The translations under genes and the position numbers were made by a program. This document shows positions 12,627-39,889 of a DNA stretch of 39,889 nucleotides, piece by piece. A model generated the notes under the pieces. The model had not been told where the DNA came from, ran no database searches, and was given only the letters and a program-made list of their open reading frames with translations. The stretch comes from a virus: positions 1 to 39,889 of the IMG/VR virus record IMGVR_UViG_3300044655_001400. One strand, given 5' to 3'. How positions within the stretch are numbered: position 1 is the first letter of the stretch; each line of letters opens with the position of its first letter.

Positions 12627-13414
12627 CACGCCCACTCTCGCTGTTGCTTGCGTTTTTTCCAGTAGTCGTCTGCCGAAAGTAGATTGTCGGGGACGCTACG
12701 CAGATCTCGTTCTTTAGGCTTAGCAACGGCGCAGGGCTGGCCAGTAGGCGCGTCAGAGATCCAATTGAGCCAGGTGCGATACCAATCTAGCTTGACGCCG
12801 TTTTTTGAGCTCAGCGACCAATTGTGCATTTTCTCTGCCTGACGGTTTATCTCTTCATCGCTGAGCCCCTTGTCACGAGCTGCTTGGCGATAGTCGTCAG
12901 GTAATTTCCAATCGGTCGGGAGGCGGTGAGCGCGCTTGCGCGCACTACTAACCTTTAGGTTAGTACTATCTGTTTCTGTATCTGTATCTGGTCGTATCGT
13001 CGGCGTAACGTCACCGTAACGCTGCCGTAACGCATCATTATCTTCTGTCTTACCGCTCTTTCTTGCACGATATCTACGCATACGCTCGGCAGCAGTTGCG
13101 TCACTCTTATCGCTCTCGTATTGTCTTTTGTCCCAATTAGTTATGAATAACTCGCCGTTGCCTCTGGAGATTAAACCAGCGCTATCTAGAGCCACTAAAA
13201 TCCGCTCAACTACGCCATCTTCAAAGTCCAAAATCGCAGACATAAAATCAGCATTACGGTAGCAAATACCTCTGTGATCGTCGTGAGAAGCATCTTCTAA
13301 GATGAAAGCCCATAACGCGATAACGTCACGCACCGTAACGCCAGCGTAACGCGCCGTAACGCGAAACTTGCCATCTTCAGTTGTTCCCTCATACCAGCGA
13401 AACCATTTACTCAT
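12626..13414 (-). CDS. O-like replication initiation protein (262 aa)
   Basis: The N-terminal half (MSKWFRWYEGTTEDGKF, then IALWAFILEDASHDDHRG and LVALDSAGLISRGNGELFITNW) resembles winged-helix replication proteins. A basic linker AERMRRYRARKSGK follows. The C-terminal domain, RLPTDWKLPDDYRQAARDKGLSDEEI through KLDWYRTWLNWISD, is the DnaT/O-type helicase-loading module seen in many temperate phages. It should bind the origin and recruit the host helicase. The gene itself carries iteron-like CGTTACG repeats, as lambda O carries its origin. Start and stop overlap the neighbours by 4 and 3 bases. Confidence 0.75.
   Translation of the reverse strand: MSKWFRWYEGTTEDGKFRVTARYAGVTVRDVIALWAFILEDASHDDHRGICYRNADFMSAILDFEDGVVERILVALDSAGLISRGNGELFITNWDKRQYESDKSDATAAERMRRYRARKSGKTEDNDALRQRYGDVTPTIRPDTDTETDSTNLKVSSARKRAHRLPTDWKLPDDYRQAARDKGLSDEEINRQAEKMHNWSLSSKNGVKLDWYRTWLNWISDAPTGQPCAVAKPKERDLRSVPDNLLSADDYWKKRKQQREWA
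12930..13361. other. Candidate replication origin: iterons and palindromes inside the O-like gene
   Basis: CGTAACG occurs at 13004, 13015 and 13026, exactly 11 bp apart, and again at 13334, 13345 and 13355, with related ATAACG at 13312 and 13320. The first three copies fall in three different codon phases, so the conservation is at DNA level. Beside them are the palindromes TACTAACC-TTTA-GGTTAGTA (12946-12965) and GCGCGC-TT-GCGCGC (12930-12943). This is the arrangement of a lambdoid origin nested in its initiator gene. Confidence 0.65.
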
Positions 13415-17827: not shown

Positions 17828-18211
17828 ATGACTAGAGCGTTACTGACTTTACGAACAACCGAGGATCGCGAGAAGGCGGCGCATTGGATTGCCAAAGTGC
17901 CGCCTGGAACGCGCCTGGAGTTTAAGGCGCCCAGAAGATCCCTACCCCAGAACGATCTTTTGTGGAGCCGTTTAACGGATGTCGCTCGGCAAAAGCCTGA
18001 GTATTACGGGCATCAAATGAATGCCGAGGATTGGAAAGATGTTTTTGTGGCTGCGCTGCGTAAGTGTCGAATGCTTCCTGGGATTGATGGGGGAATTGTT
18101 CCTGTGGGTTTGCGCTCAAGCGATTTAACGAAAGAAGAGTTTACAGAATTGTTGGATCTAATCAGCCATTTCGCATCGATAAATGAAATTAGGTTGAGTG
18201 ATGAGGATTAA
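17828..18211 (+). CDS. ninB: NinB-like recombination mediator (127 aa)
   Basis: The protein matches lambda NinB (Orf) in order and motif: a basic RRSLPQNDLLWSRLTDVARQ, then MNAEDWKDVFVAALRKCRMLPGIDGGIVPVGLRSSDLTKEEFTELLDLI. NinB binds single strands and SSB and helps load annealing proteins in place of RecFOR. The ATG at 17828 has GGAG five bases upstream; an upstream alternative start is less likely. In the 55-base gap before it, GCCCCC (17776-17781) and GGGGGC (17796-17801) can pair, but there is no T-tract. The first CNNCG array starts 18 bases after its stop. Confidence 0.88.
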   Translation: MTRALLTLRTTEDREKAAHWIAKVPPGTRLEFKAPRRSLPQNDLLWSRLTDVARQKPEYYGHQMNAEDWKDVFVAALRKCRMLPGIDGGIVPVGLRSSDLTKEEFTELLDLISHFASINEIRLSDED

Positions 18212-18229
18212 TAAATTTACTGCGTGTTT

Positions 18230-18279
18230 CGTCGCTGCGCGGCGCAACGCGTCGCCCCGCAGCGCACCGCAACGCAACG
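18230..18279 (+). repeat. CNNCG pentamer array 1 (10 units)
   Basis: Ten successive 5-base units all fit CNNCG (for example CGTCG, CTGCG, CGGCG, CAACG), ending CACCG-CAACG-CAACG and then AT. It lies between the ninB and 189-aa genes, separated by 28 AT-rich bases from array 2. It holds no reading frame of its own. Confidence 0.9.
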
Positions 18280-18307
18280 ATTTATTTGTCAATTTACCAC
18301 CGTTAGG

Positions 18308-18357
18308 CTGCGCAACGCCCCACCCCGCCCCGCTCCGCGGCGCACCGCAACGCAACG
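18308..18357 (+). repeat. CNNCG pentamer array 2 (10 units)
   Basis: There are again ten pentamers, one of them (CCCCA) off-pattern, ending CACCG-CAACG-CAACG and AT, identical to the end of array 1. The 189-aa gene starts 26 bases later, behind AGGAGAG. Confidence 0.9.
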
Positions 18358-18383
18358 ATTAACAACGTATAGGAGAGTAAACG

Positions 18384-18953
18384 ATGAGAACAGTAACAAT
18401 ACAATTAGAAAGTCTAACGCCCTACAGTGCCTCTAAATACTTTGAGCCAGACATCCAAAAAGGCGAGACAAAAGACGCACACGAAAAGAGACGCTGGAAG
18501 GAAAAAGCGCACATAAATGACGTTAAAAATATATTCATTCCAGGCGTAGCATTTAAGCTTGCACTAGATGAAACGGCACAGCTTTTAAATGAAAAGATCC
18601 CTGGCAAAGGAAATCAAACTTGGACGGGACAATTCGCTACTGGCGTTGTCGCTATGTCTGACGTTGATTTGGGCATTCAATCCGATCAATTAAAATCAAT
18701 ACAAATATTTGCTCACGCAAATGGCAAGCGCGGCCCAGGAACGCGCGTAATGCGTTTCTTTCCGATCGTCTATCAATGGACGGGTGAGCTCGTAATGAAT
18801 ATTTTCAATGACACTCTGCCGGAAGAAATATTTGAGCGATTTTTCGAGCAAGCAGGCTTGTTAGCTGGCGTTGGTAGAGGTCGCCCAATTACAAAAAGCC
18901 CTGCAGGGAATGGACGGTTTAAACCAGTAAAATTTACTTGGTTTGATAGCTGA
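18384..18953 (+). CDS. Conserved-looking phage protein of unknown function (189 aa)
   Basis: This soluble alpha/beta protein starts MRTVTIQLESLTPYSASKYF. The middle reads NIFIPGVAFKLALDETAQLL with a Lys-rich IPGKGNQTW, and the end has AGLLAGVGRGRPITKSPAGNGRF. A similar layout of early strands, a GKG loop and a Gly/Arg-rich GxGRxRP end occurs in unnamed proteins of many temperate phages, always near recombination genes. I know no function. AGGAGAG lies eight bases before the start. Pentamer array 3 begins at the base after its stop codon. Confidence 0.75.
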   Translation: MRTVTIQLESLTPYSASKYFEPDIQKGETKDAHEKRRWKEKAHINDVKNIFIPGVAFKLALDETAQLLNEKIPGKGNQTWTGQFATGVVAMSDVDLGIQSDQLKSIQIFAHANGKRGPGTRVMRFFPIVYQWTGELVMNIFNDTLPEEIFERFFEQAGLLAGVGRGRPITKSPAGNGRFKPVKFTWFDS

Positions 18954-19003
18954 CCGCGCGGCGCTCCGCACCGCGCCGCACCGCTCCGCTACGCAACGCA
19001 ACG
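18954..19003 (+). repeat. CNNCG pentamer array 3 (10 units)
   Basis: Ten pentamers (CCGCG, CGGCG, CTCCG, CACCG and so on) begin directly after the TGA of the 189-aa gene and end CTACG-CAACG-CAACG, then AT. The next start codon is 23 bases on, behind AAGGTGGA. Confidence 0.9.
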
Positions 19004-19026
19004 ATCATCAACCATAAAGGTGGAAT

Positions 19027-19473
19027 ATGCGACCAATATTCAGTCAATCAAACGAAACAAAAAAGTTAATAGAGCTATTTATAGCTATGCCAATTGGATC
19101 AAGTATGTCGTTTCAAGCAGCGACACAAGCGGTTCAATTTACCGTTAAATCTGTCTTGCCAGCTTATCAAACTGCAAAACGAATTGCAGAACGCGATCAT
19201 AATGTCGTGATTGAAGCTGTGCGCGGCTTTGGATTTATGCGGATTAATGGCTCGGAAATGGTGTCTAGAGCGCCAAGGTTTTTTAGGAAAGTAAGAAAAG
19301 GAGCTCGGCGAGAGGCTCACGTTCAAAATATTGCAATCAGTCAGAATTTAACACGCGAGGAAATGATGGTTGCAACAGAACAGTTTTCTAGATTGCGGAT
19401 TTTGGAAACGACTGCAAACAACGTCAAGCGCCCTACATCTAATCGCAGAATTGTAGAAACACCTCCAACATAA
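19027..19473 (+). CDS. Hypothetical protein (148 aa)
   Basis: The protein begins MRPIFSQSNETKKLIELFIAMP, continues SFQAATQAVQFTVKSVLPAY and AKRIAERDHNVVIEAVRGFGFMRI, then a basic stretch FFRKVRKGARREA. The mix of short helices, a beta hairpin (VRGFGFMRI) and basic residues would suit a winged-helix nucleic-acid-binding fold; this is inference. It has a ribosome site AAGGTGG. It travels between the 189-aa and HNH genes, flanked on both sides by pentamer arrays. Confidence 0.7.
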   Translation: MRPIFSQSNETKKLIELFIAMPIGSSMSFQAATQAVQFTVKSVLPAYQTAKRIAERDHNVVIEAVRGFGFMRINGSEMVSRAPRFFRKVRKGARREAHVQNIAISQNLTREEMMVATEQFSRLRILETTANNVKRPTSNRRIVETPPT

Positions 19474-19485
19474 TTTAGGAAATCT

Positions 19486-19560
19486 CCCCGCGACGCGACG
19501 CCCCGCAACGCGCCGCTCCGCTCCGCTTTGCCTCGACCCGCCCCGCAACGCACCGCAACG
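19486..19560 (+). repeat. CNNCG pentamer array 4 (15 units)
   Basis: Fifteen pentamers, thirteen of them CNNCG (CTTTG and ACCCG deviate), run without a phase break and end CAACG-CACCG-CAACG, then AT. The HNH gene's ATG is 8 bases later, so the array occupies the place of its ribosome site. Confidence 0.9.
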
Positions 19561-19567
19561 ATCAATA

Positions 19568-19960
19568 ATGACTGAAGATGTAACAACAACGCCCAGGAAA
19601 AAACTTTCTCCTACAGCAAGATTAAAACTGTTTGAGAAACATAAGGGCGTTTGCTTTGTCTGCAGCCAAAAGATCATCGGTAAATTTGTAGTCGAACACA
19701 TCAGGCCGCTCGCACTTGGCGGCACCAACGAGGACAACAACCTTGCGCCAGTTCACACTAATTGCAGCGACGTTAAGACGTTCGGCAAAGAGGGCGATAT
19801 TGCAAGAGCCGCTAAAGCTAAGCGTCAGAAAATGGCGGCGCTCTCGATCGGAAAAGATAGCCCTAAACTGGTTAGCCGAGGTTTCCCAAAGTCAGACAAG
19901 CCCAGATCAATCGATCGTGGCGCCCTGCCCCAATTACCCAGACGCGCGCTCTACGAATGA
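19568..19960 (+). CDS. HNH endonuclease (130 aa)
   Basis: The zinc and catalytic residues of an HNH nuclease are visible: C29-x-x-C32 (CFVCSQ), the EH44I motif, N58 in EDNNLAPV, and H63-x-x-C66. The C-terminal third is basic and may bind DNA. HNH proteins near terminase genes act in packaging, but this one is in the recombination operon, so a homing, repair or junction-processing role is as likely. No Shine-Dalgarno precedes the ATG, only a pentamer array, suggesting weak or special translation. Confidence 0.82.
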   Translation: MTEDVTTTPRKKLSPTARLKLFEKHKGVCFVCSQKIIGKFVVEHIRPLALGGTNEDNNLAPVHTNCSDVKTFGKEGDIARAAKAKRQKMAALSIGKDSPKLVSRGFPKSDKPRSIDRGALPQLPRRALYE

Positions 19961-39337: not shown

Positions 39338-39889
39338 TCAGCTGTTCGTAATATTCGCTACAACTGCGTGAGCGTAAGGCGAGTTGATAACAAGCGTGTA
39401 TTCGCAGAGAAGCTGCGAACGCTTACTATCGCCTGTGCGTGCCAGCTCAGTGCGCTGGAACGGACGCAGATAAGCAACCTTCGCATAATCTGGATCTACA
39501 AAGTATGCGAATGCACCGTTACAGAAGAGCGAAGGAACGATATCGAGCGCACCAAAGTCGGACAGATAAACGTCAGCCGAGCCAACAATGGTAGCATTAC
39601 CATTCTTAACATCGGTATTAACGCGCGTCTGAGACAAGCCAGCGAAGCCAGAAACGCGGGTCTTATTGACCGGCGAAACAAGCATCATCTTAGGCTCACC
39701 GCCCTTTTGATACATATTGCGGATAGCATCTTTTAGGTTTGTTTCCGTAAAAGCAGCTGAGCCGCTCGTAAGCGTCCAGGCAGTCGTTGGTGCTCCACTT
39801 ACCGTAGAAGCGCCGCCAGAATACGCTGGGCCGGTTACGGTGCCTACAACGATGCCGTTACCAGCAGGCGTCTGAGCAGTCGTTTTAAT
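39338..39889 (-). CDS. Major capsid protein, C-terminal part (N-terminus at the left edge)
   Basis: This is the remainder of the SU10-type capsid protein. It is in frame with the segment starting at 574 once the repeat is collapsed (574+39762-39338 gives 333 codons including stop). The in-frame ATG at 39715 is internal, not a start. Visible segments include FTETNLKDAIRNMYQKGG, a run on DVYLSDFG, and DPDYAKVAYLRPFQ near the end, typical of the family's C-terminal half. A strong terminator follows 24 bases after the stop, so the capsid transcript can end here while some polymerase continues into the neck genes. Confidence 0.93.
   Translation of the reverse strand: MKTTAQTPAGNGIVVGTVTGPAYSGGASTVSGAPTTAWTLTSGSAAFTETNLKDAIRNMYQKGGEPKMMLVSPVNKTRVSGFAGLSQTRVNTDVKNGNATIVGSADVYLSDFGALDIVPSLFCNGAFAYFVDPDYAKVAYLRPFQRTELARTGDSKRSQLLCEYTLVINSPYAHAVVANITNS
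39763..39889. repeat. Terminal direct repeat, right copy
   Basis: This is the exact second copy of the first 127 bases. Removing one copy gives a circle of 39762 bp and restores a single uninterrupted capsid gene. Confidence 0.97.

Follow-up and report, generated by a model that had tools for sequence, protein, structure and literature searches.

The window, which is an entire virus record (39,889 bp) and includes an integrase gene, most likely carries a VIPR system of a CGC/NN kind. VIPR systems are RNA-guided DNA-recognition systems of phages, first described in 2026, and the one paper found on them is a preprint (PMC13142463). In that preprint, the guide RNA (vrRNA) is built of pentamers in which a GGY triplet alternates with a variable NN; through its NN series it recognises double-stranded DNA, skipping single bases, and acts against competing phages, a mechanism demonstrated experimentally for SUSP1 and P. 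fulva, and the Vipr protein is a RAMP with an RRM core, a glycine-rich loop and a thumb (PMC13142463). VIPR is proposed as a CRISPR precursor and as a programmable DNA binder of very small size, and all its types are said to use GGY/NN ‘or a related consensus’ (PMC13142463); the CGC/NN kind may already be known to the authors. An earlier note on this DNA knew of no described element resembling its pentamer arrays; the pentameric guide RNAs of the preprint are such an element.

Four arrays of the window (Table 1) are most likely genes for VIPR guide RNAs. We hold with considerable confidence that the locus is a compact VIPR system embedded in a phage operon, whose arrays are guides against rival phages and prophages.

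Table 1. Putative guide arrays, genes and linker of the array locus in the window
Feature	Coordinates	Strand	Description	NN series	Basis
Guide array 1	18230..18279	+	vrRNA-like; 10 units, 10/10 CNNCG	GT TG GG AA GT CC AG AC AA AA	sequence; similar arrays in 103 viral-contig stretches
Linker, arrays 1/2	18280..18307	+	AT-rich, ATTTATTTGTCAATTTACC...		flank comparison
Guide array 2	18308..18357	+	10 units, 9/10 CNNCG; unit 3 is CCCCA	TG AA CC CC CC TC GG AC AA AA	sequence
vipr homologue	18384..18953	+	189 aa, 20 kDa, RAMP/Cas7-like, glycine-rich loop GVGRGRPITKSPAGNGRF		
Guide array 3	18954..19003	+	10 units, 10/10 CNNCG	CG GG TC AC GC AC TC TA AA AA	sequence
vap homologue	19027..19473	+	148 aa, predicted winged helix and helices; putative DNA-binding accessory protein		
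Guide array 4	19486..19560	+	15 units, 13/15 CNNCG; deviants CTTTG, ACCCG	CC GA GA CC AA GC TC TC TT CT CC CC AA AC AA	sequence

The arrays are in phase and lie where the earlier note had placed them, each terminating in CAACG followed by AT. Array 3 directly abuts the vipr stop codon TGA (18951–18953), and array 4 stops 7 nt short of the HNH start codon (ATG at 19568). A near-identical counterpart of the linker between arrays 1 and 2 separates arrays in the relative L215. The 5-bp phase goes beyond what local GC bias yields, since the longest CNNCG run in 2000 first-order Markov simulations of 18001–19700, with the model fitted to that region with the arrays left in, was 4 units, whereas perfect runs of 10, 10, 8 and 7 units are observed. 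Folding analysis, pseudoknots aside, revealed neither a conserved RNA fold nor a structured tail for the window arrays, whose RNAs have short AT-rich flanks and fold no better than shuffles. Rfam yielded neither a hammerhead nor any other family in the window and 13 related loci, and a promoter and terminator scan put the window at background level.

Drift peculiar to this genome does not account for the arrays. The pattern (CNNCG)7CAACG is matched in 103 viral-contig stretches with differing NN series, which bears out the earlier proposal that the phase is conserved and the sequence is not. Many of these stretches contain several arrays with unrelated NN series, mostly in one orientation and ending in CAACG units, and a short tag after the array ends recurs within a genome. 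Across 404 arrays the NN are close to random and the length ranges from 6 to 59 units, mostly 9–16; the suspected clustering of unit counts at multiples of 5 is not seen. Diverse arrays of the same kind are also found in bacterial contigs (Paracoccus, Rhodospirillales, Nitrospirota, Planctomycetota and others); the majority of array matches in bacterial genomes were uniform microsatellites and were excluded. An initial tally that located many arrays within ORFs was rejected as an artefact, because CNNCG repeats are stop-free in every plus-strand frame and so open false ORFs.

Two ORF families only are widespread across array loci in an all-against-all ORF comparison, those of 18384–18953 and 19027–19473; the next clusters are their antisense shadows. 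Profile searches place vipr and/or vap at 93 of 112 array loci. Of 344 arrays, 337 lie on the strand of vipr, and the median distance to it is 127 nt. Neighbours of the arrays in the window include YqaJ, ERF, SSB, NinB, HNH and integrase genes, and the earlier note had tied the arrays to this recombination operon; the recombination genes (YqaJ, ERF, SSB, NinB, HNH) are not common to array loci, which instead share the two families.

The association can also be entered from the protein side. A vipr-family protein as sole query retrieved 19 loci, seven with CNNCG arrays and seven with CNNCA arrays and a constant linker; reading by eye showed degenerate CNNCG arrays at L215 and GATNN arrays at L228, and automatic detection alone gave no array in the L215-like loci L216, L217 and L220. 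Because arrays are recovered at loci retrieved by protein, pentamer arrays follow the protein, and the fixed triplet varies by lineage.

Several of these loci differ from the window in their arrays. Loci L221–L227 (e.g. L224:3189–4490) have long CNNCA array series with a near-constant linker CGACACGACAACCGCTTTTCC, that is a CAC/NN code, and their RAMP relatives are at 38% identity. At L228:10583–10880 the GATNN arrays, apparently a GAT/NN code, are 3′ of a distant RAMP-gene relative in an AT-rich phage. Among the loci found by array, the contig IMGVR_UViG_3300043540_000481 (stretches L015, L023, L077 and L081) has CNNCG arrays dispersed across 43 kb, and neither vipr nor vap was found in these stretches; its arrays are possibly orphan guides served by the protein of another element.

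The profile of the 18384–18953 protein finds PDB 36pp_D, ‘SUSP1 Vipr protein’ (E 2.8e-13), the one relevant solved structure, and direct comparison with SUSP1 Vipr by hhalign gives E 1e-12; the two proteins are about 20% identical. The family phrog_4652 is matched by the window protein, by SUSP1 Vipr and by 61 of 61 relatives. With the AlphaFold model (pLDDT 94.5) as query, Foldseek returns Cas7/Csm3 RAMPs, the best at E 1.3e-7. Judged by homology and modelled fold, the product is a Vipr homologue with a Cas7/RAMP fold. Pfam, NCBIfam and PADLOC assign the protein to no family, and tblastn against cultured phages yielded no match for it or for one relative, and for the RAMP protein of another relative only a weak partial match, in Pseudomonas phage LESphi2.

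The 19027–19473 family is the second gene at array loci, as vap accompanies vipr in VIPR. Its member in the window weakly matches phrog_5926, the family of SUSP1 vap, which is matched by SUSP1 vap itself and by 18 of 52 relatives, and hhalign gives E 2.7e-4 with a probability of 42%. No significant structural match was found for its predicted structure. In sequence the family appears to resemble SUSP1 vap, a weak but repeated link.

SUSP1, read directly in its phage sequence, has counterparts of vipr and vap together with YNNGG arrays. Its VIPR (type II; PDB 36pp) and the window have in common a homologous RAMP protein of ~190–200 aa, a small accessory gene of a related family, and, around these genes, pentamer arrays that combine a fixed triplet with hypervariable NN; in the window they are intergenic and of 10–15 units. 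Target reading with a 1-nt skip is demonstrated for SUSP1 VIPR and, for the window's clade, is supported in relatives. The fixed triplet is CGC/NN in the window but GGY/NN in SUSP1; the window, unlike SUSP1 VIPR, also has arrays between vipr and vap; and it has a CAACG CAACG cap and short AT-rich linkers, whereas SUSP1 VIPR has a structured 3′ tail with a pseudoknot. Since the GGY triplet is absent and no structured tail was found, we do not file the window in the SUSP1 clade. VIPR is found mainly in viruses and proviruses, which the integrase-bearing virus record and the viral-contig stretches above fit. The Pseudomonas fulva VIPR, by the preprint's description, is prophage-borne with guides aimed at other prophages, but its arrays are GGY/NN (PMC13142463).

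Cas7/Csm3 (Class 1, type VII CRISPR-Cas) are alike in having the RAMP fold and a guide-coating backbone with a fixed nucleotide step. A CRISPR spacer is contiguous, however, whereas reading in the window's system would be noncontiguous, 2 of every 5 bases; near the window arrays we saw pentamer arrays only, without the identical repeats and spacers or the adaptation genes of CRISPR-Cas.

Guides of relatives were decoded by joining the NN series under the 1-nt-skip rule of the preprint. Searching 346 guides against an initial local database of 0.98 Mb gave 2, 9, 3 and 2 best matches at 90% or better for skips of 0, 1, 2 and 3 nt. In an enlarged local database, matches of at least 95% numbered 0, 4, 0 and 1 for the same skips, and shuffled guides gave none. 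The four skip-1 matches amount to two independent guides, because one is circular and another pair comes from a single guide present in two contigs; the circular one, a 100% match of window guide 1, was dropped since its targets (L229–L236) had been fetched with that pattern. At 90% or above and skip 1 the enlarged database gave 17 real matches vs 11 shuffled, which is uninformative.

One L035 guide matches the SNF2-like helicase gene of L018, another VIPR phage, at 20/20 over units 2–11, its sole match among the viral contigs; another L035 guide fits that gene at 18/20. The guide shared by L051 and L068 matches a DEAD-box-like helicase of L041 (817–2595, match at 2300) at 19/20, which suggests that VIPR phages target one another. 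L041 is a close relative of the window phage.

The first guide of the Paracoccus prophage L205 finds one homologous site, in the terminase large subunit, in three Paracoccus genomes, two of them at 20/20 over units 2–11; skips of 0 and 2 give 1 and 0 matches, at 3 mismatches. Its 20-base pattern is exact in 24 viral contigs, where the chance expectation is of the order of 0.1 matches (our own estimate, assuming ~5e10 bases). In every one of the 24 the match falls in the gene for the terminase large subunit and in a single frame, such that the skipped bases are third codon positions, at which the contigs vary among themselves. The third L205 guide matches 117 sites spread over 63 of 125 Paracoccus genomes, against 0 when the pattern is reversed, and the three sites that were opened are all in a serine recombinase (22/22 over units 2–12). 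Because homologous sites do not represent separate events, each guide is counted once. In these matches the opening unit and the terminal AA units mostly do not fit the target; probably neither that first unit nor the CAACG CAACG cap is read. A Roseomonas guide yielded no target.

By such matching the 1-nt skip is found in relatives of the window within its own clade. The phage terminase, serine recombinase and helicase are natural targets, and for a lineage far removed from SUSP1 they support noncontiguous reading with a 1-nt skip. With the terminase, a use of skipping the third codon base becomes apparent as well, in that one guide fits 24 contigs differing at the skipped bases. A widespread phage clade has a different fixed triplet from characterised VIPR, as recognised from sequence alone.

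The arrays, the two-gene linkage, the homology and fold, and the decoded targets of other CGC/NN members support this system directly; from them we infer how it would work in the window. The four arrays would be transcribed from the plus strand as guide RNAs (vrRNAs), on which copies of the 20-kDa RAMP protein would align, gripping the CGC triplets and exposing the NN pairs. The NN series would pair with double-stranded DNA, one target base being skipped between pairs, and rival phages or prophages would thereby be recognised and repressed, with the winged-helix protein presumably serving as the accessory protein vap. Among the roles considered in the earlier note, a protein or RNA reading 5-nt steps survives, while a recombination site, a translation regulator and a selfish repeat fit poorly with the RAMP/winged-helix linkage and the relatives' decoded targets.

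For the window's own four guides no target was found. Exact scans with guides 1, 3 and 2 gave 8, 14 and 11 matches, of chance order and without a plausible shared phage target, and guide 4 had 0 matches in viral contigs and in 249 genomes from the taxonomic order to which L144's host belongs. If the first and the last two or three units are unread, as is probable in relatives, a 10-unit array would read ~7 units, or ~14 bases. Both points weigh against the VIPR reading, as do the failure to find a conserved RNA fold, a structured tail or a promoter signal above background, the Roseomonas guide that found no target, and a fixed triplet of CGC in place of GGY. It is conceivable, though unlikely, that the system is decayed or untargeted in this phage and is inactive: one unit of array 2 and two of array 4 are imperfect, three arrays have just 10 units, and there are the missing targets. 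Yet vipr and vap are intact and conserved and arrays 1 and 3 are perfect, and for scans not directed at a known host and its phages a missing target is expected; for the same reason the null scan neither supports nor refutes function.

Binding sites of TRAP, the trp RNA-binding attenuation protein, consist of about 11 triplets with 2-nt spacers and a 5-nt period. The window arrays have this period and spacing and immediately precede the start codons at 18384, 19027 and 19568, as they would if they were cis-acting RNA leaders whose triplets are coated by a TRAP-like protein that governs how the operon is translated or transcribed, DNA guidance playing no part. We give this little credence, because the NN should then be free of information, yet in relatives they decode to phage genes; relatives moreover have many arrays in tandem and downstream of genes, and the TRAP family (TrpBP) has no Pfam match among the ten genes around the arrays. 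That the arrays are selfish or recombinogenic repeats or simple-sequence slippage, functionless for the phage, is scarcely tenable and already contradicted for relatives: identical unit runs common to some arrays suggest local duplication, and genuine CNNCG microsatellites exist in other bacteria, but the NN are hypervariable while CNNCG is kept, arrays lie near vipr and nearly all share its orientation, and targets can be decoded.

Within the VIPR reading, we see an even balance for and against a more specific proposal, that of a distinct lineage in which the fixed-triplet code has changed (to CGC here, CAC in L221–L227 and GAT in L228) with the 1-nt skip kept, an unread first unit and a CAACG CAACG cap have been added, and triplet and protein co-evolve as orthogonal guide-protein pairs.

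Some further features were observed. GC-rich hairpins occur in inter-array linkers of relatives (L212:10636–10709; L219 between 10584 and 10722; L085:605–1029) and could be terminators or processing signals. In the window, identical copies of a 127-bp direct repeat occupy 1–127 and 39763–39889, so that the record probably represents either a full circular genome or one with terminal repeats. Repeats of ~11 bp on CGTAACG at 12993–13032 and 13324–13362, within or beside an upstream reading frame on the complementary strand, may be replication-origin iterons.
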